Source: a virus. Taken from it: a stretch of DNA of 26,260 nt. How positions within the stretch are numbered: the stretch's first letter is position 1; the number at the start of each line of letters is the position of its first letter. The stretch covers positions 1 to 26,260 of IMG/VR virus record IMGVR_UViG_3300046010_013188, one strand, 5' to 3'. Under the pieces are notes generated by a model. It was not told where the DNA came from, made no database searches, and worked only from the letters and a program-made list of their open reading frames with translations. A program made the translations under genes and the position numbers. Shown here one piece after another: positions 1,667-24,764 of the stretch.

Positions 1667-2074
1667 ATGAAGCCAAGCGAATTTAAAACCTTAATCAAAG
1701 AAGCAGTAAGGGAAGCTATCCAAGAAGAGTTGAAAGACATTCTACTTGAAGCAGTAAGGGGTAACAGAAACACCATTTCTGAAGTTCAATATAGAGCTCC
1801 TATTTCACAACACCAACCCACTACTCCGAACCTAGCTCCAGCACATCACCCTAGATCTACCAACGTAGAAATACCTAGTAGATTAGCCGCTACTCCCTTA
1901 CAGGAAATGCTAGCACAAACTAGAGCTAGTATGAACTCTTCTGAATACAAAACCATTCTAGACATCGACTCGGGTAACGCACCAGGTATGAGTAATGTAG
2001 ATCTAATGAACGGAAAATTGCCCGAAGGCGAAGTTTCAATGAATACAATTATGAAGCTTGTAGGTAGGAAATAA
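1667..2074 (+). CDS. Small protein with repeated amphipathic leader motif, baseplate locus
   Basis: This 135-residue protein begins MKPSEFKTLIKEAVREAI and continues as one long charged amphipathic helix to about residue 33. The rest is Pro/Thr/Gln-rich and looks disordered (residues 40-70), then a helical tail ends MKLVGRK. The N-terminal helix has several [I/L]-x-E steps (IKE-A, IQE-E, LLE-A), the kind of site cleaved by T4-type prohead proteases. A similar helix recurs in other proteins of this window. The gene ends in TAATG, sharing one base with the gp25-like gene. It could be a minor head or tail protein or a scaffold-like piece; I assign no function. The start is preceded by an A/T-only leader with no Shine-Dalgarno. 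Confidence 0.6.
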   Translation: MKPSEFKTLIKEAVREAIQEELKDILLEAVRGNRNTISEVQYRAPISQHQPTTPNLAPAHHPRSTNVEIPSRLAATPLQEMLAQTRASMNSSEYKTILDIDSGNAPGMSNVDLMNGKLPEGEVSMNTIMKLVGRK

Positions 2075-13070: not shown

Positions 13071-13534
13071 TGATCACTCAAGATCCTTGGACCTATAAAG
13101 GTAGATTTATAACCCAACTTTTAGATATACCACCTAATACTTTTGGCTTTGTATACCAGATAACTAACAATAAAACCAATAAAAAATATATTGGTAGAAA
13201 AGTTTTATATTTTGAAAGAAATAAAAAGCTTACTCAAAAGGAATTAGCTGAACTAACAGGTAAAGGAAGAAAGCCTACTACTAAAAAAGTAGTAACCGAA
13301 AGCGATTGGAAGGACTATTTCGGTTCTAATAAAGAATTTATTGAAACAGTAAAGGCTCAAGGTCGAGGTGAATTTAGTAGAGAGATATTGGAGTTTGCTC
13401 CTAACAGAAAACTTCTCACCTACTATGAATGTAAGTATATTTTTAAGTTCGGAGCAATTGAACCTAGCAGCCTATACTACAACGATAATATTTTAGGTAA
13501 ATTTTACAGAAAAGACTTTCCCAATGAAGCTTAA
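13070..13534 (+). CDS. GIY-YIG-like nuclease
   Basis: The 154-residue protein carries the two diagnostic strands of the GIY-YIG fold: G26-F-V-Y29 and, after a hairpin, K39-Y40-I41-G42-R43-K44. A candidate metal-binding Glu sits at E120 in a helix (LLTYYECKYIF), where the family's catalytic glutamate lies. Residues 76-92 hold a DWKDYFGSNKEFIE segment, common in phage-encoded members. Family members cut DNA using a divalent metal. The protein is a single compact domain with no visible DNA-binding repeat, so a homing endonuclease of the Seg type is possible but not shown; repair or genome-processing roles are alternatives. It overlaps the kinase-like gene by eleven bases. Confidence 0.7.
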   Translation: MITQDPWTYKGRFITQLLDIPPNTFGFVYQITNNKTNKKYIGRKVLYFERNKKLTQKELAELTGKGRKPTTKKVVTESDWKDYFGSNKEFIETVKAQGRGEFSREILEFAPNRKLLTYYECKYIFKFGAIEPSSLYYNDNILGKFYRKDFPNEA

Positions 13535-14042
13535 GGATATTATACTAGAGAATAGTAAAGACAAAAAATACTTAGCTCTTGTAAATGCTTTAAGAGAAAA
13601 GTATAATACAACTGACTTAGGAGTAGGTAGCTTTGGTGTTGCTTTTGATCTTGGAGAAGGAAAAGCTTTAAAAGTCACTACTGATAGTTATGAGATAGAT
13701 CATGCTATAAAGCTTAAAGGGCACTCCTCACCTTTTATTATTCCTATTTTAGGGGTAAAAAGATTTAGCGAGTCATTAGGAGTTATTTACACTAAGGTTG
13801 CCGATCCTATCTCCGATCAAGAGAAGATTCAGATAAAGGAAATAGAAGAGTCTGCTGAAGATTTTCTAAGCCGAGGAGAAGACAAGGAGCTTAACAAGTT
13901 TACTCAAAATATAGAGCTAGTAAAACTCGTTAAAGGCTTAAAATCAGCCTTCAATAGTGTCGGAATATCAGGAGATGAAATCGACTGGTCTCCTGAAAAC
14001 ATAATGAGGTATAAAGGTAATTATGTATTAGTTGACATTTAG
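13524..14042 (+). CDS. Minimal protein-kinase-like protein with capsid-targeting-like leader
   Basis: The 172-residue protein has a recognisable kinase core. There is a glycine loop G33-V-G35-S-F-G38-V-A, a following ALKVT with K50 in the position of the ATP-binding lysine, and a catalytic-loop-like D154-W-S-P-E-N159 matching the D-x-x-x-x-N of 'HRDLKPEN'. A hydrophobic strand then ends in D171, matching the DFG aspartate. The chain stops one residue after that Asp, so activation segment, APE motif and C-lobe helices are absent. The preceding His/Arg of the catalytic loop are not conserved. The N-terminus, MKLKDIILENSK, looks like a short cleavable head-targeting leader. It may phosphorylate a small molecule or protein, or be an inactive ATP-binding domain. 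Confidence 0.65.
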   Translation: MKLKDIILENSKDKKYLALVNALREKYNTTDLGVGSFGVAFDLGEGKALKVTTDSYEIDHAIKLKGHSSPFIIPILGVKRFSESLGVIYTKVADPISDQEKIQIKEIEESAEDFLSRGEDKELNKFTQNIELVKLVKGLKSAFNSVGISGDEIDWSPENIMRYKGNYVLVDI

Positions 14043-15010: not shown

Positions 15011-15789
15011 TAAAGGGCTCAAATATATTAAAAGAACATAAACTTAAGAATTTAGACTTTCAACCTAAATTACAGCAAATTAACTTTTTAGACCGTCGGG
15101 TTTATAAGAGATCTGAGGGGAAGTACTATCCATCAGTTACAAGCATTTTACAGTACATGCCTAAGAATAAGTTTTTTGAGCAATGGATTAAAGATGTAGG
15201 GCATAATTCTGATCTCATTATGAGAAAAGCAGGTGAAGAGGGAACCGCCGTTCACAATGCCGTTGAAGATCTCCTTAAGGGAGAAGAAATTACCTGGATG
15301 GATGACTTTGGCAACGCCAAATACTCTCTAGAGGTCTGGAATATGATATTAAAAGCCTATGAATTTTTTGAAACCTATAAACCTGAAGTACTCGCATCTG
15401 AGCATTTCATTTATTCTGATGAGCATGAGTATGCTGGAACTATTGACCTTATTCTTAAGCTTGATGATTTAATTTGGTTGGTTGATATTAAGACTTCAAA
15501 CTCCATTCATAAGTCACATGAGTTGCAACTAGCTGCTTATGCAAGAGGGTGGGAAGAAACCACCGGTCAGAAAATAGATAAGACTGGAATATTATGGTTA
15601 AAGTCAGCTAAAAGAACACCTTCAAAGAAAGCAGGTTCATACCAAGGTAAAGGTTGGGAGATTATAGAGGCAGATGATACAGATAAGAACTTTGGATTCT
15701 TTAAACTTATCTATGAACTGTATAAAATGGACAACCCAACCACCGAGCCTATTTATAATAGCGTACCAACCGCTATAAAACTATCATGA
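15004..15789 (+). CDS. PD-(D/E)XK nuclease, RecB/Cas4-like
   Basis: The 261-residue protein shows the RecB-family nuclease motifs in order: H84 and E88 in GTAVHNAVED, D148 in AGTIDLI, D161-I-K163-T in WLVDIKTS, and Q175-x-x-x-Y179 in LQLAAYARG. These are the metal-binding and catalytic residues of the family. No four-Cys Fe-S cluster is visible, so it is closer to a phage exonuclease than a classic Cas4. Likely roles are DNA end processing in recombination or replication, together with the primase directly upstream. It overlaps the next gene by four bases (ATGA). Confidence 0.85.
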   Translation: MLVKGSNILKEHKLKNLDFQPKLQQINFLDRRVYKRSEGKYYPSVTSILQYMPKNKFFEQWIKDVGHNSDLIMRKAGEEGTAVHNAVEDLLKGEEITWMDDFGNAKYSLEVWNMILKAYEFFETYKPEVLASEHFIYSDEHEYAGTIDLILKLDDLIWLVDIKTSNSIHKSHELQLAAYARGWEETTGQKIDKTGILWLKSAKRTPSKKAGSYQGKGWEIIEADDTDKNFGFFKLIYELYKMDNPTTEPIYNSVPTAIKLS

Positions 15790-16424
15790 AAAACAAAGAT
15801 TTAGATGTAAATTTCCACCTAGCTATAGAAAAAGCTATAGCCTCTCTTGACTTTCCACAAGATATACAACATCTATCTGAAATAATTCAAACTAAAGACA
15901 ACCTCACAAATACCGATAAGGAGTCCCTATATCAACTTAAGGAGCGTCTGCAGGAAATTATACCCAATTCAATGACGGCGGATATTGAGGGGGATAGGAT
16001 TATAGTTCATTTTATAGACTCAACCACCGAACCTATCGATACCCCTACCGATTATACTCCCTTTATGCGAGCGATTATGGAGTATATGGAAAGCAAGGGA
16101 ATGAACGTAAAGCCCTTCCCTAAAATTACTCTTCAGGAAGATTTAGAAGAAGGAAAAAAGATACTAGGCAAAACAGCTTACTACGACCCGGAGTTAGAGG
16201 AAATAGTGCTTTATACTTCAAACAGGCATCCAAAAGATATACTAAGATCCTTCGCTCATGAGATGATACATCATATTCAGAAGCAAGAAGGTAGGATTGG
16301 AAACGGTGAGGTATCAACTACCAACATAAATGAGGATGAGCATTTACGGAAACTAGAGGAAGAAGCATACTTAAAGGGAAATATAGCCTTTAGAGAGTGG
16401 ACTGATAAAACAACTAAGGCATAA
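15786..16424 (+). CDS. HExxH zinc metallopeptidase-like protein
   Basis: The 212-residue protein contains H158-E159-M-I-H162 in SFAHEMIHHIQKQEG, the zinc-binding and catalytic motif of zincins. A downstream acidic helix (LRKLEEEAYLKGNIAF) could supply the third ligand as in gluzincins. The N-terminal 60 residues are helical and charged. Residues about 95-150 include FMRAIMEYMESKGM and LGKTAYYDPELEEIVLYTSN, which fits the pre-catalytic beta sheet. No signal peptide is visible, so it should act in the cytoplasm or inside virions. I associate this combination with environmental phages; the substrate is unknown. It lies between a DNA nuclease and a nucleotidase. Confidence 0.7.
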   Translation: MKNKDLDVNFHLAIEKAIASLDFPQDIQHLSEIIQTKDNLTNTDKESLYQLKERLQEIIPNSMTADIEGDRIIVHFIDSTTEPIDTPTDYTPFMRAIMEYMESKGMNVKPFPKITLQEDLEEGKKILGKTAYYDPELEEIVLYTSNRHPKDILRSFAHEMIHHIQKQEGRIGNGEVSTTNINEDEHLRKLEEEAYLKGNIAFREWTDKTTKA

Positions 16425-18507: not shown

Positions 18508-18784
18508 AAGACCATATACCGATTTAGAAGTTACTTCAACTTATAAGGTTAGGGAGTTTTCCGACGACGTAGAGGAAAAAGAGCTTTACTGGCATAGAGA
18601 TGATGAAGACAGGACTATAGAGGTACTAGAGGTAGGAACCAATTGGAAGTTCCAAAGAGATAATTTTTTACCGGAACCTCTATTACAAAATACTAATATA
18701 TTTATAGAAAGAAACGAGTGGCATCGTGTCTTAAAAGGTTCTGGAAAATTACTATTAAAGATATATCTCGATGGCGAAAAGTAA
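18494..18784 (+). CDS. Small cupin-like protein
   Basis: The 96-residue protein has a cupin-type single-barrel pattern: ELYWHRDDEDRTIEVLEVG, then WKFQRDNFLPEPLLQNTNIF, IERNEWHRVLKGSG and LLLKIYLDG. The first motif's His-Arg-Asp and the late W-H-R are where metal or ligand residues sit in cupins. It may bind a small molecule or metal; no catalytic role is shown. The start is a GTG at 18494 within the previous gene, chosen because no ATG lies in frame before the conserved core. The 3' end overlaps the small basic gene at 18771 by fourteen bases. Confidence 0.6.
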   Translation: MDSGKRPYTDLEVTSTYKVREFSDDVEEKELYWHRDDEDRTIEVLEVGTNWKFQRDNFLPEPLLQNTNIFIERNEWHRVLKGSGKLLLKIYLDGEK

Positions 18785-18914
18785 ATCACAGAGTACTTCA
18801 GTTTTTCTTAAAAAAGAACATAAAAAAAGAGCTGGCGTTCATAGTAAGTGCAAAAGCTCAAACATTAAAAGCAGTGTTAACTACCGCAAAAAATACCGTG
18901 GACAAGGAAGATAA
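18771..18914 (+). CDS. Short, very basic conserved phage protein
   Basis: A 47-residue reading frame runs from ATG 18771 to TAA 18912-18914. It reads MAKSKSQSTSVFLKKEHKKR, then AGVHSKCKSSNIKSSVNYRK and KYRGQGR. About 40% of residues are Lys, Arg or His. I recognise the pattern 'S-x-S-x-F-L-K-K, R-x-G-V-H-x-K, Y-R-G-Q-G-R' from many environmental T4-like phages, where it is a stand-alone small protein. It begins inside the end of the cupin-like gene. It is far more convincing here than the overlapping upstream extension of the next gene, which uses another frame over the same bases. Nucleic-acid or scaffold binding is plausible from charge alone. Confidence 0.75.
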   Translation: MAKSKSQSTSVFLKKEHKKRAGVHSKCKSSNIKSSVNYRKKYRGQGR

Positions 18915-18939
18915 AATTTCTTCAGACCCACTAGCTTTT

Positions 18940-19425
18940 GTGCAGGAATTGATAGATGAAAATCTACGAGACTGGTTTAAGAAAGAGAAATGGGTTAACA
19001 TTTCAACCTCAGGAAAGATAACAGGTCCGTGCGGTACTTCTAAGAATAAAAAGAACCCGGACCGTTGCTTACCTAAAGCAAAAGCACAATCACTGAGCAA
19101 GAGCGAAAGAGCTGCTACAGCTAGGAAAAAGAAAGCAGCAGGAGCTAAAGGCCAGCAAGTAGTACCTAATACTAAGAAAGCAAAAGTAAAAAAAGAAAAC
19201 GTAGCACCCAATCATGACGGTAAAGCAGCTCCATACGGTTCAGGGTATAAAGTAACAAAAGAGGAACTTATTAGAATAGTTAATGAAGTTCTTTCGGAAA
19301 AAAAGTATAAGAAAAAAGATGATCGCTGTATTAGGAGAGCGAAACAAGAATACGATACATGGCCCTCAGCTCTTGCTTCAGGAGCAGTTGTTAGGTGTAG
19401 AAGAGGTGAAATTTGGAAAAAATAA
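18940..19425 (+). CDS. Two-module basic protein (DUF5872-like plus a second Cys-containing module)
   Basis: The frame is open from before 18718, but that part overlaps two better genes. I place the start at GTG 18940, just before the conserved ELIDENLRDWFKKEKWVNIS; GTG 18898 is possible. The first module continues GKITGPCGTSKNKKNPDRCL and SKSERAATARKKK, a DUF5872-like pattern (recognised from memory, not searched). A basic linker follows. Then comes KVTKEELIRIVNEVLSEK at 19246-19305, a leader-like helix, and a second module (DDRCIRRAKQEYDTWPSALA, then SGAVVRCRRGEIW). In relatives I know, the second module's motif occurs as its own small protein, so this looks like a fusion with a targeting leader trapped inside. 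Function unknown; the charge suggests DNA association. Confidence 0.6.
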   Translation: MQELIDENLRDWFKKEKWVNISTSGKITGPCGTSKNKKNPDRCLPKAKAQSLSKSERAATARKKKAAGAKGQQVVPNTKKAKVKKENVAPNHDGKAAPYGSGYKVTKEELIRIVNEVLSEKKYKKKDDRCIRRAKQEYDTWPSALASGAVVRCRRGEIWKK

Positions 19426-19428
19426 AAA

Positions 19429-19656
19429 ATGAAATTAGCAAAAATTCTATTAGAAAAAACTAATCCGGAGGATAGAGTTACTCTAGATATCCCTTTATTT
19501 ATCAGATTACTGGAATATGCAAGAGAGGATGCTAAAGAGGATGTCGATCTACACTACTTAGCTGATAATGCAATCAGACTCTCAGCTGAAGGTAAAACCT
19601 TAAGTATGAATCATTATAACGATATAGTTTCAAAAAATATCAAAAAGATCAAATAA
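19429..19656 (+). CDS. Small helical protein with leader-like N-terminus
   Basis: The 75-residue protein starts MKLAKILLEKTNPEDRVTLD. The first nine residues fit a short leader ending LLE. Mature residues would include VTLDIPLFIRLLEYAREDAK and a LADNAIRLSAEGKTLSMNHY segment. I recognise this mature part as a frequent small protein of environmental myophages, often with a different N-terminal leader, but know no function. It has an A-only leader (GGAAAAAATAAAAA) and no Shine-Dalgarno. It lies in the cluster of leader-bearing genes from 19429 to 24764. Confidence 0.65.
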   Translation: MKLAKILLEKTNPEDRVTLDIPLFIRLLEYAREDAKEDVDLHYLADNAIRLSAEGKTLSMNHYNDIVSKNIKKIK

Positions 19657-19663
19657 AAACAAA

Positions 19664-19993
19664 ATGATGAAACTATTAAACCTCCTTTCCGAAGCAAAAA
19701 AAGCAAATGAAACTTTCGAGGAATTTGCTTCCACAAGAGGTGAAGGTGCTGCTAAGATAGCGTCAACAGCCCATGAAAAGGGCGGGCTAGCTCTTTTGAC
19801 TTGGCACCACTTTAAGGTCAAAGCTCCATACTACAAAAAGGCAACTGCCGGCAAGTTTGATGAAGAAGCTGCTAAAAAAGAATTTGAGAGTACCTTAAAG
19901 GGTATATCACTAGGTATGACTGCTATTGAATTCCAAAGAGAGGTAGGCCGGCTAGAGGTGCTAGGGGAGCTGCTGATTAGAGAAAAAAAATAA
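19664..19993 (+). CDS. Small conserved phage protein with capsid-targeting-like leader
   Basis: The 109-residue protein starts MMKLLNLLSEAKKANETFEE. The leader MKLLNLLSE-A closely resembles the T4 internal-protein leader MKTYQEFIAE-A, including a small residue after the Glu. The mature part has GEGAAKIASTAHEKGGLALL, then TWHHFKVKAPYYKKATAGKF and a helical tail EVGRLEVLGELLIREKK. I recognise that core as common in environmental myophages, function unknown. Two ATGs are adjacent at 19664 and 19667; either could start it. The compact, basic mature part would suit packaging with DNA. Confidence 0.7.
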   Translation: MMKLLNLLSEAKKANETFEEFASTRGEGAAKIASTAHEKGGLALLTWHHFKVKAPYYKKATAGKFDEEAAKKEFESTLKGISLGMTAIEFQREVGRLEVLGELLIREKK

Positions 19994-20001
19994 GAAGTAT
20001 T

Positions 20002-20415
20002 ATGAAACTCTCAAGACTTATAAACGAAGCGGAGGTTAAATGTCCTCCTGCAACACAGGACATCGATCTCAATCTCAAGAACAGACAGAAAGCCATTGAC
20101 GAATACGGATACGGCCCTGCTGACCCCTCCCAAAAGAACGAAAAGTTCTGGAAGAAAAAGATGGATATGTGGCAGGTCGATACTGCTGAAGAGCTGAAAA
20201 AAATGGTATGCGGTACTTGTGCTGCTTTCGATATCACGACTAAGACTCTAGACTGTATTGCAAAGGGTATCGGATCGGACATGGGTTCGGAAGATCCTTA
20301 CGATGTAATTGATGCCGGTGAGTTAGGTTACTGTAGATTTCTAAAGTTTAAATGCGCAGCCTCTAGAACTTGCGATGCTTGGGTAACAGGTGGTCCTATT
20401 AAAGATAAAGAGTAA
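20002..20415 (+). CDS. Cysteine-rich, possibly Fe-S or zinc-binding protein with leader
   Basis: The 137-residue protein begins MKLSRLINEA-EVKCPP, a leader ending INE-A. Seven cysteines are at residues 14, 70, 73, 85, 111, 118 and 124. The order C70-G-T-C73-AAF, then LGYC111RFLKFKC118 and RTC124DAW gives a compact metal-site pattern. The spacing is somewhat like high-potential iron-sulfur proteins (C-x2-C, C, C), but I cannot show that. Residues 25-60 include LKNRQKAIDEYGYGPADPSQ and a FWKKKMDMW helix. I recognise the protein as common in environmental phages with unknown role. If the leader is real, a metal protein would be carried inside the capsid. It shares its last base with the next gene (TAATG). 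Confidence 0.65.
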   Translation: MKLSRLINEAEVKCPPATQDIDLNLKNRQKAIDEYGYGPADPSQKNEKFWKKKMDMWQVDTAEELKKMVCGTCAAFDITTKTLDCIAKGIGSDMGSEDPYDVIDAGELGYCRFLKFKCAASRTCDAWVTGGPIKDKE

Positions 20416-20756
20416 TGAAAACATGCCTTGAAACCTTCAATAATCATTTCGGAACTAACTACAAATTTACCGAAGTCAATGAGCATTTAGCATATGCTGA
20501 TCTTTTAGATTTAGGAGAACTTGATTTAATTATAGATCAAGCTAAGCTTTATGCTTACCATACTAAAAAGCTAGAAGGAACCATATTTGAGGTAGTTTAC
20601 AGGTTTACAGGAGGGCACTTCTCAACCGCTATAGTAGGGAGATCATTAGATGGAGAATTTAAACCTTTTACTTTGCAGTCATTTCCCGAAGATCTTACCA
20701 TTATACCAGATAACGTTTTAGATAAATTGAACTCTGATATAAGCCATGGTATTTGA
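20415..20756 (+). CDS. Unrecognised protein
   Basis: The 113-residue protein starts MKTCLETFNNHFGTNYKFTE. I do not recognise it. It looks like one alpha/beta domain: two helices (residues 1-45), then strands GTIFEVVYRFTGGHFSTAIV and GRSLDGEFKPFTLQSF. The context is a run of small accessory genes with ATG overlaps. The next gene starts inside its end (eleven-base overlap), so the two are probably expressed together and may be partners. No signal peptide or membrane segment is seen. Confidence 0.5.
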   Translation: MKTCLETFNNHFGTNYKFTEVNEHLAYADLLDLGELDLIIDQAKLYAYHTKKLEGTIFEVVYRFTGGHFSTAIVGRSLDGEFKPFTLQSFPEDLTIIPDNVLDKLNSDISHGI

Positions 20757-21402
20757 GTACAGTGATTTTAAAGTTTTAAAAGATATAAAAATTGAAGCTC
20801 CTCTTACAAACGAAGAGCTTTTACTTTTAGTTGATATTGAAAATGTAGATCGAGTAGGGTTTGACCTTACAACTTTAGAGCAAGCCTATTATAAGGCTAA
20901 TGGTATTGATTTAAATACTAAACTATTATTTTCAAAAGATAGCTATAAAAGTTCCTGGGATACCGTCTTTAGTAAATGGATTCTCAACAGTAAAATATCC
21001 GATAATCTATATATCGATCATTCAGGACTGTATGGAATATATCCATTCGAAGGAAGAGCTAGGGAGCAGATAAAGAAGTTTATTCCTCAAAGGAACGAAC
21101 TGGCCAAGCTTTTAAATTTAAAGGGGAAAGTAGGGTATGATGTTTGTATTGATTATATCAAAGGAGAAAAAGTAATTGAGGTTTTACATTTAGAACATGA
21201 CTACGGTATTGAGGAATACGACCTTTTTATGACAAATAAAGAAAGGTTAGAAAATAACCTTCCTGAATATGAATGGGAAGAGGTTATCGAAAAGTTAATG
21301 AATACTATTTACTTAAAGAGTAGTGATTCAATTGAATTAAGCAATTATAAAGCTAGCTTATTTGGATTTCATAAAGCCTTCAGATACTATAACAGAATAT
21401 GA
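20746..21402 (+). CDS. Unrecognised protein, coupled to its upstream neighbour
   Basis: The 218-residue protein is acidic and Leu/Ile/Asp-rich (EYSDFKVLKDIKIEAPLTNE, then LLLLVDIENVDRVGFD). The middle has YIDHSGLYGIYPFEGRAREQ and KKFIPQRNELAKLLN. The C-terminal part has KGKVGYDVCIDYIKGEKVIE, then VLHLEHDYGIEEYD and a final FGFHKAFRYYNRI. I know no family with these features. The codon choice and AT content look like those of the neighbours, so I see no sign of recent transfer. It overlaps the previous gene by eleven bases and the next by four. The D-Y-G-I-E-E-Y-D segment looks conserved-like but is not diagnostic. Confidence 0.5.
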   Translation: MVFEYSDFKVLKDIKIEAPLTNEELLLLVDIENVDRVGFDLTTLEQAYYKANGIDLNTKLLFSKDSYKSSWDTVFSKWILNSKISDNLYIDHSGLYGIYPFEGRAREQIKKFIPQRNELAKLLNLKGKVGYDVCIDYIKGEKVIEVLHLEHDYGIEEYDLFMTNKERLENNLPEYEWEEVIEKLMNTIYLKSSDSIELSNYKASLFGFHKAFRYYNRI

Positions 21403-21908
21403 CTATAAGCGAGCTTTCCTTACTAATAGATGAGATAATCTCGGAAACCATTAAGAAGGTAGATGGCAAGTATGTTGTATACCCAAAAAAAGGAGGTGAT
21501 AGACTAGGAACTCATCCTTCTAAAGAAAAAGCTTTAGCTCAGTTAAGAGCTATTGAAGCTAATAGAGATGAATCCATAAGTGAAATTAAGGATGACGAGG
21601 TTAGATATTGGGCAATGCATGCTGATTTATTCGATCTTTTAAAAAAAGTACCTCACCGCTATTCCGAGCTATCAGCTAAGCTAGATGGAGAGAGAAGAAA
21701 AGCTTTAGATTATTTTTATGGTACTTATTTTCAAGGCAGAAATACAGTTGCTGAAAATGATCATAAACCTATGAACCCAGGCATCCTTAAAAAGAGATTG
21801 GGAAAGCTTTCCTGCAGTAAGGTTAGGGCTGAAAAAAGCAAGTTAAAAGACAAAGGGACTACCTATGCTAAGGCACTTCAAAGGTACCTTAACTATCACT
21901 GCCAGTGA
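21399..21908 (+). CDS. Multi-motif phage protein with leader-like N-terminus
   Basis: The 169-residue protein begins MTISELSLLIDEIISETIKK, a leader-type helix with IDE and ISE steps. Residues 20-50 (VDGKYVVYPKKGGDRLGTHP, then KEKALAQLRAIEAN) form the small 'K-V-x-x-x-G-x-x-L-G-x-H-x-x-x-x-x-A-x-x-x-L-x-A-I' element found in several phage head-associated proteins. Residues 66-110 are helical. The C-terminus, NPGILKKRLGKLSCSKVRAE then GTTYAKALQRYLNYHCQ, is a basic conserved block I have seen in environmental phages without known function. It may be a mosaic of small modules. The overlap with the previous gene is ATGA. Confidence 0.65.
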   Translation: MTISELSLLIDEIISETIKKVDGKYVVYPKKGGDRLGTHPSKEKALAQLRAIEANRDESISEIKDDEVRYWAMHADLFDLLKKVPHRYSELSAKLDGERRKALDYFYGTYFQGRNTVAENDHKPMNPGILKKRLGKLSCSKVRAEKSKLKDKGTTYAKALQRYLNYHCQ

Positions 21909-21934
21909 TCTATTTATTATAAACATTATAAAAA
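21909..21934 (+). promoter_or_regulatory. Leader with TATTTATTA motif
   Basis: This gap contains TATTTATTA at 21911-21919 and a second AT-only element, ATTATAAAAA, just before the ATG. The same core TATTTAT[A/T]A occurs before the genes at 10146, 17567 and 25932, in four of the seven gaps longer than 15 bases. It could be a phage promoter for the head/virion gene that follows. No Shine-Dalgarno is present. Confidence 0.35.
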
Positions 21935-22156
21935 ATGGCAAAAGTAGCTAACTCAGGAGGACTCTTTTTAACAGGCAGTCAAGCGATAACCGGTAGCTTC
22001 ACCGGACTTACGGTTATGAGTACAACTAATATAGGTAATATTACTTTCGGAGAAGGCGGACCTCAAGGACCTATACAAGGTATTCCTGCAGGGACTACAT
22101 TAGACGTTCTTATTCGTGATATTAGAATAACAGGATCCGTATTATTGTATACCTAA
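21935..22156 (+). CDS. Small virion-type protein, Gly/Thr/Ser-rich
   Basis: The 73-residue protein reads MAKVANSGGLFLTGSQAITG, then SFTGLTVMSTTNIGNITFGE and PAGTTLDVLIRDIRITGSVL. It is one small beta domain with T-G-S turns. I recognise it as a frequent small protein of environmental T4-like phages, usually near structural genes. The pattern 'G-x-F-L-T-G-S-Q-A-x-T-G ... P-A-G-T-T-L' is its signature. A capsid- or tail-decorating role is inferred from composition and position. It has its own candidate promoter upstream, which fits a protein needed in many copies. It is separated from the next gene by one base. Confidence 0.65.
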   Translation: MAKVANSGGLFLTGSQAITGSFTGLTVMSTTNIGNITFGEGGPQGPIQGIPAGTTLDVLIRDIRITGSVLLYT

Positions 22157-22157
22157 T

Positions 22158-23981
22158 ATGAATAATCTAGAAAACACTCAATTAGGAGATAATCCTAAGT
22201 ACTATATCGAGGTAACGGCTCAAGACCGTAATAGAGCAGCTGAGGTTTTCAACCGAGAAGCACAACTCCAGCTTTATATTGATAAGGAAGCAAGCCACAG
22301 GTATGTAAGCGATGATTTGAATATGATGATCACCTTCTTGCAAAGGCTAGCTGACGGTCATGTAGAACTAAGTGATTCTAACGTAGGTGAATACATGGAT
22401 GATATGGAAGCCGATTTTGAGTTAGAAGAAAAAAAAGGTAAAGATATGGATGGCGATAGTGATATCGATTCCGACGATTATCTCCTAACAAAAGACCAAG
22501 CAATAAAAAAAGCGATGAAAGGAAAAAAAATTAAAAAATCACAACTCAAAGAGCTTGTTAAAAGAGCAATCTCCGAACAACCCATGGGTATGGGAGGTCA
22601 AGTTAAAGGAGCCGTCCAACTTCCTAAAACTTCCAACCCGGCTGATATTAAAAGGTTAACTAATATGGGGGTTGATGTAAAATTAGCAGAGCTTGAGTTA
22701 AAGCACTTTGACTACACCGATGAAGAGGGAAAGATGGCTAAGAGTGATCTGCTAAAGATATCTAAGTATGCTATAAAGCTTTTCAATATGCTTGATAACC
22801 AAACTCAACTAGAGGGATGGGTGCAAGCAAAACTTACTAAAGCATCAGACTACCTATCTTCAGTATTCCATTACCTAGAAGGAGAAGAAATTTTAGGAGA
22901 AGTAAGCCCAGAATACAAACCTAACACACCAGCTCCGGAAGTAGGAGATCTGGTAGGAAATACAGTTCAAGGATTTGATCATAAAGTACTTGCTATTCAA
23001 GGAGACCATTATATAGTACAGAATACTATTACCGGAAAGAAGATGAAAACCTTCCGTGATAATATGCACAAACCCACAACTATGAAAGAAGGTCTTGGTA
23101 ATGATATTATGACCCTTCAGGAATTTCTTATTCAACTGAACCAGACTCTTGCTTACGAAAAACGTGAGGGAGGCGGTAAAGACCTAAAGCAGATTGCTTT
23201 TTTAGAGGATTGGATTGAAGATACTAGAGCAAAGCTCAAAGAAAAGATTGCACAACACAAGCAGGGTATGAACGAAGCTAGCGTTCCTGACAATATAATG
23301 AAGTTTGCAAAAAAAAAAGGAATTACTCCCCTAGTTAATAAAGTTGCAAGCTGGGCTGAGAGATTAGGAGCTAGAATAACAGGAGGAACTGCTATTGGTA
23401 AAAACTACGATACTCTAGTATTAGATATGGGTTACCAAACCGCTGATATCTACATCGATATTGAGGATCTAGCTATTTCCCTATACGGGCAACCGGCTAA
23501 TAGTTTTGAAGAGTTCAAGGAAGTTTATATGGATCAAATGACTGCCGACGAAATAGATAAAGATCAAAGTCAATTCCGCAGAGAAACAGGCTTAGAAGAG
23601 GCTTACGACGGAATGTACTTTGTAAGAGTAAGTCCTGAGACTTTTAAAAGAGCAGTAGATGTAGTAAATAGAAACTATCCTAAAGCTAACATAACTATTG
23701 AAAGCCCAGACACTTTCAGAACCAAAGACATCCAGACAGCTGAAGACCTTATTATGGATTTCGGAGTAAACGATATAGAGCTAGTTCAAGATAATCTAAA
23801 CGATTTTGGAGACTCGCAAGAAATGTTCGACGATATTGAAAATTATCAAGAGAACCCTGGTATGTACGAGAATAAGTCTACTTGCTGTATGAGATGTGGA
23901 CGTAAGCATGTAAAGGGTACTTCATGCCCAAAACCCTACTTAAGTAAAAGCAATCCTAGGCACTGTAAAAACAGAAAATAA
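22158..23981 (+). CDS. Mosaic protein: duplicated alpha/beta domain, EF-hand-like site, leader motif, zinc knuckle
   Basis: The 607-residue protein is a string of modules. Residues 14-76 (YYIEVTAQDRNRAAEVFNRE onward) and about 494-555 (MYFVRVSPETFKRAVDVVNR onward) look like two copies of one small domain. Residues 96-107 read D-M-D-G-D-S-D-I-D-S-D-D, an EF-hand/dockerin-like calcium loop. Residues 128-140 (SQLKELVKRAISE) match the leader motif of other proteins here. Residues about 175-240 (ELELKHFDYTDEEGKMAKSD, then LEGWVQAKLTKASDYLSSVF) form a helical module common in environmental phages. A beta module follows, then a helical stretch. C577, C580, C590 and C603 may form a C-terminal zinc knuckle. 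No catalytic motif is visible. I infer a virion-internal protein, possibly processed at ISE-Q. Confidence 0.65.
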   Translation: MNNLENTQLGDNPKYYIEVTAQDRNRAAEVFNREAQLQLYIDKEASHRYVSDDLNMMITFLQRLADGHVELSDSNVGEYMDDMEADFELEEKKGKDMDGDSDIDSDDYLLTKDQAIKKAMKGKKIKKSQLKELVKRAISEQPMGMGGQVKGAVQLPKTSNPADIKRLTNMGVDVKLAELELKHFDYTDEEGKMAKSDLLKISKYAIKLFNMLDNQTQLEGWVQAKLTKASDYLSSVFHYLEGEEILGEVSPEYKPNTPAPEVGDLVGNTVQGFDHKVLAIQGDHYIVQNTITGKKMKTFRDNMHKPTTMKEGLGNDIMTLQEFLIQLNQTLAYEKREGGGKDLKQIAFLEDWIEDTRAKLKEKIAQHKQGMNEASVPDNIMKFAKKKGITPLVNKVASWAERLGARITGGTAIGKNYDTLVLDMGYQTADIYIDIEDLAISLYGQPANSFEEFKEVYMDQMTADEIDKDQSQFRRETGLEEAYDGMYFVRVSPETFKRAVDVVNRNYPKANITIESPDTFRTKDIQTAEDLIMDFGVNDIELVQDNLNDFGDSQEMFDDIENYQENPGMYENKSTCCMRCGRKHVKGTSCPKPYLSKSNPRHCKNRK

Positions 23982-24232
23982 TGAAAAGATCGAAACTACT
24001 TGAACTTATTGAACTTACTATAAGGGAAAAAACCGAAAACCCTCAAGTAGATAAGATCTACAATGCCCTAGTAGGTATCAACCCCAACTACCCTCAACTT
24101 GCTAAAGCTCTAGCTAAATTCCTCTCACCCGGTACCCCTGAATCACCGGGCTTTACAAAGGATCAAGCAAGCGACTTCATGAGAATCTTACAAAACGAAT
24201 TAACCTCACAAGATGAAAATAAAACTAAGTAA
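23981..24232 (+). CDS. Small helical protein with leader-like N-terminus
   Basis: The 83-residue protein starts MKRSKLLELIELTIREKTEN, a basic amphipathic helix with an IRE-K step like those in neighbouring proteins. The rest (NPQVDKIYNALVGINPNYPQ, then LAKALAKFLSPGTP and FTKDQASDFMRILQNELTS) looks helical. I do not recognise a family. It shares one base with the mosaic gene (TAATG) and overlaps the next gene by twenty bases, which points to joint expression. A small internal or scaffold-like role is inferred from the leader and the neighbourhood only. Confidence 0.55.
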   Translation: MKRSKLLELIELTIREKTENPQVDKIYNALVGINPNYPQLAKALAKFLSPGTPESPGFTKDQASDFMRILQNELTSQDENKTK

Positions 24233-24764
24233 ACTAAAGAGCTTAGTAACTCAGGCTTTAGGCGAGTTTGGTGCTGAAGAAATCCCAGGTACTGAGATGG
24301 ACGGCGCTATGCTACCTGAAGCTGAAGAAGAGCTAACTGCTAAGTTCCCTGAATTAGAGAGAACTCTTGAAAAGCTCATGACAAATGACTTTAAGACCTT
24401 TATAAAAACTATAGATTATGTAGCTCCCAGACCTACTATGTTTAGGGTTATTTTAAATAACGATCAAACATTTTTTCTAAAGTGGATGGGGGATTACTTT
24501 CAAGCTCAAATAGAAGGAGTAAGGTATGAGCTCAATAACCGAGCTCAACTAGATCAAGCCCTTGATACTTTAGGCGATCTATTTAAATATGGACCAGTAC
24601 CTGCTGATCAATCTCAGCAAATAACCCCTCCAGGTGAAGGACCTACAGGAGGAGTAACAGCCGGAGGAGTGGGCGTTCCTACTCAGATACCAACAGGAGA
24701 TGAAGAAGAAACACCTGCTGAAGATGAAGAAGCAGATGCAATAGCAGCTATTCCTACCGCCTAG
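24213..24764 (+). CDS. Conserved phage protein with leader and acidic Pro/Gly-rich tail
   Basis: The 183-residue protein starts MKIKLSKLKSLVTQALGEFG, a leader-type basic helix with LGE-F at its end. Residues 35-125 form a folded domain: EEELTAKFPELERTLEKLMT, then KTFIKTIDYVAPRPTMFRVI, FFLKWMGDYFQAQIEG and a YELNNRAQLDQALDTLGDLF helix. I recognise this domain from environmental myophages, function unknown. Residues 128-183 are low-complexity, Pro/Gly/Thr-rich then Glu/Asp/Ala-rich, and probably disordered. The arrangement of basic leader, folded core and acidic tail is reminiscent of head core or scaffold proteins, but that is only a resemblance. The 53-base gap after it is the longest in the window. 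Confidence 0.65.
   Translation: MKIKLSKLKSLVTQALGEFGAEEIPGTEMDGAMLPEAEEELTAKFPELERTLEKLMTNDFKTFIKTIDYVAPRPTMFRVILNNDQTFFLKWMGDYFQAQIEGVRYELNNRAQLDQALDTLGDLFKYGPVPADQSQQITPPGEGPTGGVTAGGVGVPTQIPTGDEEETPAEDEEADAIAAIPTA

Follow-up and report, generated by a model that had tools for sequence, protein, structure and literature searches.

N-terminal leaders on small proteins of an aquatic T4-like phage resemble exchangeable capsid-targeting sequences

The virus record IMGVR_UViG_3300046010_013188 was analysed as a fragment of 26,260 bases (the window), which comes from a T4-like myovirus, an aquatic virus of bacteria. Several of its small, otherwise unrelated proteins begin with a short or a long leader peptide that ends in a hydrophobic-x-Glu site (LxE). 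These leaders are real and not a product of chance, and they are very probably T4-type capsid-targeting sequences (CTS), which would direct their proteins to the prohead and be cut off there by a gp21-type protease. The best reading of the system is an enlarged form of the CTS/gp21 cargo loading of T4, with exchangeable tags. In T4, the tag MKTYQEFIAE is carried by the internal proteins IPII and IPIII as well as by Alt and gp24, and is cut by gp21. The tag sequences described here were not found in the literature searched. All N-termini quoted in the initial annotation are present in the sequence; the leader-bearing genes, with a hyphen for the putative cut and the basis of each assignment, are as follows.

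13524..14042, plus strand: kinase-fold protein, short leader MKLKDIILE-N (invariant leader Glu; fold matches).
19429..19656, plus strand: small protein, short leader MKLAKILLE-K (leaders of homologues).
19664..19993, plus strand: small protein, short leader MMKLLNLLSE-A (conservation of LxE and of positions).
20002..20415, plus strand: Cys-rich protein, short leader MKLSRLINE-A (LxE conservation, leader exchange).
21399..21908, plus strand: two-domain protein, long leader MTISELSLLIDEIISE-T (second LxE site, NTVAE-N, before the HKPMNPGILK domain).
23981..24232, plus strand: small protein, long leader MKRSKLLELIELTIRE-K (direct reading).
24213..24764, plus strand: acidic protein, long leader MKIKLSKLKSLVTQALGE-F (starts of homologues).

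Matching N-termini are far more frequent than expected. The comparison set consisted of six long relatives (145-173 kb) and two cultured phages, Flavobacterium phage immuto and Microcystis phage Mel-JY01. These two are the nearest in culture, with wedge proteins about 45% identical to that of the window; among the IMG/VR contigs, hundreds stand closer to it. A short-leader pattern derived from the window and immuto (Met, Lys or Arg, then [LIVF][LIVF]xE at residues 8-14) matched 88 proteins in nine genomes, namely the window and eight relatives, as against 15 in composition-preserving shuffles of the N-termini and about 11 in internal windows. When all four leader types described below were combined, the patterns for the added types being post hoc and drawn up after inspection of the data, 106 of 1,786 genes matched in the eight relatives (12.5 after shuffling). 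These matches are spread over 76 body families; the leaders sit on otherwise unrelated proteins. Relatives carry about 7-19 tagged proteins per genome. As a positive control, T4 gave 8 matches (2.6 shuffled), including ipII, ipIII, gp22 and gp24, and the short-leader pattern found 0 of 54 proteins in N4 and 1 of 98 in crAss001. The possibility that the leaders arose by chance, since the genomes are AT-rich and protein starts with Met-Lys and a hydrophobic residue, such as MK-L, are frequent in them, is extremely remote in view of the shuffled and internal-window controls, the fact that dozens of distinct family members conserve the leaders, and the exchange of leaders on one body. Codon identity between leaders of the same genome, counted at shared residues, shows no excess over codon usage (8 of 23 in the window, where 9.5 are expected). 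The leaders are therefore not recent copies of one another, and selection acts on the peptide; recent gene-to-gene copying of leader DNA is ruled out by this test.

The conserved leader positions coincide with those known to matter in T4. The 19667 start given in the initial annotation is the second ATG of its open reading frame (ORF); the first ATG, at 19664, yields MMKLLNLLSE-A and places the leader in the 10-residue register of the T4 tag. LxE precedes the body in 70 of 70 alignable homologues of the 20002 protein and in 66 of 66 alignable distinct homologues of the 19664 protein. In a profile of these two families (70 and 65 distinct members), which was anchored on LxE, the Glu before the cut (P1) is invariant, hydrophobic residues are conserved at positions 4, 7 and 8, and positions 5, 6 and 9 vary freely. 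Mutagenesis of the T4 CTS assigned residues 4 and 7 to targeting and residues 8 and 10 to processing (PMC9026906), so that the conserved positions 4, 7, 8 and 10 are those of the T4 experiments, by comparison and not from mutants. The 13524 family, whose members are 23-29% identical apart from one near-identical member, has only seven invariant residues: besides Met1 and the leader Glu, these are the kinase-type residues, namely two Gly in the nucleotide loop, Lys50, Asp154 and Asp171.

Leaders are also exchanged on a given body. In the 20002, 19664 and 19429 families, bodies carry differing leader types in different phages. Homologues of the 20002 protein may start with MDTFDLRQYLAE-G or MKITELIKDLVKE-G, those of the 19664 protein in some phages with the alternative leader MDNFDLRKYLAE-A, and those of the 19429 protein with short or long leaders (MKLIDLLLE-E, MDNLTLRYLIREAVEQVFLE-K, MKKSDFVKLITETLSSKLNE-E). 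One body family occurs with all four types: scaffold-type in L326, FDLRKFITE-type in G016, long in immuto and short in G013. The L326 and G016 bodies are 82.6% identical (E = 5e-115), and the immuto and G013 members are distant (E about 1e-8). Some homologues in other phage types have no leader. The similarity of 20002 homologues in other phage types is confined to the part downstream of the leader, and a match to the 19429 protein in a 735-kb phage likewise starts downstream of it. The initial annotation had seen two leader classes and suggested two targeting routes. This finds no support, as the leaders fall into four types or more, which replace one another on the same body; their occurrence on one body family indicates that the types do one job.

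The window has no gene for the prohead protease sought by the initial annotation; in relatives, all 10 of the long genomes searched encode a gp21-type protease. At the position where T4 gp23 is cut, [ILV][VI]xE is found in 61 of 62 distinct capsid proteins, the exception being a fragment; each of the 73 protease N-termini from the relatives contains [LIV]xE. The relative G009, which is close to the window (its 20002 protein is 93% identical), has window-type leader genes at 146.9-149.4 kb, directly upstream of a head cluster with terminase (151.2 kb), portal (152.9 kb), protease (156.7 kb), scaffold (158.1 kb) and major capsid protein (159.5 kb). The usual C-terminal end of the scaffold proteins is R[MW]QKLAGI(I)K. 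Counted over all loci, this motif (RMQKLAGI) lies near a C-terminus in 39 instances, is N-terminal in other proteins in 25 and stands elsewhere in two, and the N-terminal copies are nearly always followed by xE a few residues downstream, for example in MKKQILSEQFRRMQKLAGIITE-S. This third leader type is absent from the window and present in immuto (111675), where the gene shares an island with the orthologue of 19664 (112261). By sequence comparison, the scaffold-motif leader ties the leaders to head assembly.

A T4-like cyanophage, S-CREM2, has a published virion proteome (PMC10665884). The short-leader pattern, applied unchanged, was compared with its 219 proteins, of which 28 were detected by mass spectrometry outside the structural list and 167 were undetected. 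Six proteins matched, five of them detected non-structural proteins and one undetected (Fisher P = 2.4e-4), and none of the detected structural proteins did. Four of the five detected leaders are near-identical in form: those of an S-adenosylmethionine (SAM) hydrolase (MKDFDSFLEE), a kinase (MKRFDAFLTE), a cytidylyltransferase (MKNFSSFLTE) and a small protein (MKDLHSFLTE). The passages of that paper that were consulted make no mention of the leaders. These virion enzymes resemble the window proteins in their tag-type starts and differ from them in phage family and leader wording. No virion studies of immuto or Mel-JY01 were found in the literature searched.

Two further explanations of the leaders have to be weighed. 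They might be uncleaved amphipathic helices that bind some other partner (membrane, chaperone, host protein or tail), with the Glu merely part of the helix. The spacing of the hydrophobic residues suits such a helix, a similar conserved helix stands on the baseplate-cluster protein 1667, and the AlphaFold model of the 13524 protein, confident except for leader residues 1-11 (the sole part with pLDDT, the per-residue confidence score, below 50), has a short, low-confidence helix at residues 4-8. However, the Glu is invariant amid variable neighbours, the identical motif occurs at the capsid-protein and protease sites, the scaffold C-terminus shares a motif with the leaders, and tagged proteins were detected in S-CREM2 virions; we consider uncleaved helices unlikely. 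Alternatively, the proteins could belong to the prohead core, as gp67 and gp68 do in T4, aiding assembly and being chopped up instead of carried as cargo. The same leaders on head-cluster proteins (123355/155616 type, scaffold) and the many LxE sites in several longer proteins would fit this. The bodies, which include a kinase fold, a lysozyme-like protein of G017 that ends in a LysM-like tail and a nucleotidase family, and the presence of tagged enzymes in finished S-CREM2 virions argue against it, making a core function still less probable.

The first proposal, that the proteins are packed into the prohead and trimmed behind [L/I]-x-E, is thus well supported by comparison, through the key CTS residues of T4 and the capsid and protease site motif, with further support from the adjoining head genes of G009 and the S-CREM2 virions. 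Several observations weigh against this interpretation. Neither a protease nor a capsid gene lies within the 26-kb window; gene starts in all genomes come from our own simple caller; hydrophobic residues at positions 4, 7 and 8 are also compatible with a plain amphipathic helix; and a helix like the long leaders is present on protein 1667. Moreover, some leader matches are distant from head genes, a few four-type matches, such as a clamp-loader-like protein, are plainly due to chance, and the fifth detected match in S-CREM2, ORF17 (one peptide), looks like chance as well; S-CREM2 itself belongs to another phage family than the window.

For the window phage, we infer targeting and cleavage along the lines known from T4. 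Through its tag, each protein would dock on the scaffold core of the prohead during assembly, and the gp21-type prohead protease would then cleave behind the Glu of the hydrophobic-x-Glu site. The protein freed in this way would remain in the head alongside the DNA, probably to be released into the next host; injection of the tagged proteins is plausible by analogy. Likenesses to T4 include a tag of about 10 residues on unrelated bodies, the key positions 4, 7, 8 and 10, an [L/I]-x-E cut site and, in the relatives, a gp21-type protease that adjoins the scaffold and capsid genes. The system differs from that of T4 in the larger number of tagged proteins per genome, in having four or more interchangeable tag types with different wording, in a type resembling the scaffold C-terminus and in possible internal sites. 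In the giant phages SPN3US and phiKZ, ejection proteins carry propeptides that are mostly longer than 100 residues with AxE or SxE sites (PMC5694885). These, too, are N-terminal extensions on phage proteins, removed there by a T4-related prohead protease (PMC5694885), but the leaders described here have 9-28 residues and LxE sites and are not of that long-propeptide kind. What appears to be new here is the occurrence of all four types on one body family, the scaffold-motif tag and LxE at internal domain borders. A broader proposal is that head loading is modular, in that tags imitate pieces of shell and scaffold (one type repeating the scaffold C-terminal motif, another resembling the start of the capsid protein itself, MELNQLLE), a tag swap loads any protein and internal LxE cuts release modules; we offer it tentatively, as a possibility somewhat short of even.

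The internal sites were seen in longer proteins, where hydrophobic-x-E was scored within 14 residues ahead of recurrent small domains (background 25%). Among distinct cases, it stands ahead of the Cys-rich module in 25 of 27 (over all loci), of the HKPMNPGILK domain in 7 of 7 and of the DRCxRxA domain in 10 of 10; a fourth recurrent small domain has it in 19 of 26 cases. In the window, such domain-border sites are present in the 21399 protein (NTVAE-N) and in two others:

18718..19425, plus strand: Lys-rich protein with an internal leader motif KEELIRIVNEVLSE-KK before the DRCxRxA domain (LxE before the domain).
22158..23981, plus strand: 607-residue protein with an internal leader-like helix KKIKKSQLKELVKRAISE-QP and a C-terminal Cys-rich module (direct reading; polyprotein-like).

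The leader motif of the 22158 protein is internal, not N-terminal, and GMYE-NKS lies ahead of its Cys-rich module. A homologue of the 18718 protein in G012 begins outright with the short leader MIKLTDILKE-V, and in G009 the HKPMNPGILK domain immediately follows a long leader, MKKSEFQNLIQELAAEVLTE-G. These arrangements suggest that internal LxE sites serve to divide the longer proteins into modules. The true start of the 18718 protein is probably downstream of 18914; a 47-residue ORF at 18771-18914, conserved in immuto and G009, lies in a different reading frame and overlaps the upstream portion of the ORF ending at 19425. In Mel-JY01 (PP395634), a leader-bearing protein of 428 residues at 52405 (L006) has a C-terminal sequence like a long leader, MKITREQLKEKIRIIVKRVLNE-AMK, an end reminiscent of the C-terminal cut of T4 Alt.

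One protein that the initial annotation had counted in the set probably does not belong to it:

1667..2074, plus strand: baseplate-cluster protein with a conserved N-terminal helix MKPSEFKTLIKEAVREAIQEELKDILLE (beside a gp25-like gene).

Its helix is conserved along the whole length over about 63 orthologues, none of which shows exchange of leader type, and in the close relative G009 the orthologous helix does not finish in LxE. On these grounds and because of its location in the baseplate cluster, we do not count it as cargo; a long helix motif by itself is thus no proof of head targeting.

The main cargo bodies have no confident function in Pfam or PHROGs. The 13524 protein shows the features of a kinase-like fold (Gly-rich loop, Lys, catalytic-loop Asp and DFG-like Asp), and its model matched kinases and aminoglycoside phosphotransferases (APH) in Foldseek; tblastn found no match in cultured phages. 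It has 172 residues and stops just past the DFG-like Asp, without most of the C-lobe, and every member of the family (142-185 residues) stops at the same point. Kinase activity of a chain ending there is uncertain. Distant phage homologues of the 20002 protein are annotated as high-potential iron-sulfur protein, and of its homologues on contigs classed as bacterial, some of which may be phage, one starts with that leader and four lack it; its AlphaFold model is poor (pLDDT 42). A leaderless iron-sulfur-like domain of the 20002 type is found in Actinomycetia phage DSL-LC01 (L388 5656-6390), C-terminal to another domain; the genes that follow immediately carry the annotations capsid maturation protease and major capsid protein. 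Four homologues of the 19664 protein (L239, L243, L246, L251) have MIKLLEILRG or MIKLLEILKG ahead of the body; the canonical Glu is lost and LLE is kept four residues upstream. For the 23981 protein only two homologues were found, one near-identical and the other distant; the distant one begins with MSFDVAKWNKKRYLAE-A. Homologues of the 24213 protein begin with MKRSELRDLLLEAYIEVLRE-T, MKKSDLKKVILEAYVEVLKE-A or MKLNKLKDIIQEAYFEVLIE-A. The lysozyme-like protein of G017 with the LysM-like C-terminus (36997, L381) starts with the short leader MIRLTTLLVE-A.

The window contains the gp25-like gene (2074), a gp6/J-like wedge protein (2480) and tail genes and, downstream of these, the small-gene block, which also includes the leaderless genes 20415, 20746 and 21935. 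An ORF at 15786-16424 has an HExxH metallopeptidase-like motif (SFAHEMIHHIQ) and no confident Pfam match. T4 packages the ADP-ribosyltransferase Alt in its head, whereas the window encodes no such protein. PF03496 (ADP-ribosyltransferase) scored above the cut-off in T4 Alt and in a head-cluster gene of Mel-JY01 (L005 22429-23595), which lies between the protease and scaffold genes, starts with MYEYVEYILE-K and is a candidate counterpart of Alt. A PF03496 match in a conserved head-cluster protein of G017 was below the cut-off and was rejected.

If this interpretation is correct, small uncharacterised genes in a widespread aquatic group of T4-like phages, on hundreds of contigs, would become sortable as virion-carried by a sequence rule, and the same rule would yield a list of candidate first-minute effectors. 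The leader resembling the scaffold tail is a testable proposal for the binding partner of a capsid-targeting sequence, and the interchangeable tags could be used as parts to load chosen proteins into phage heads.

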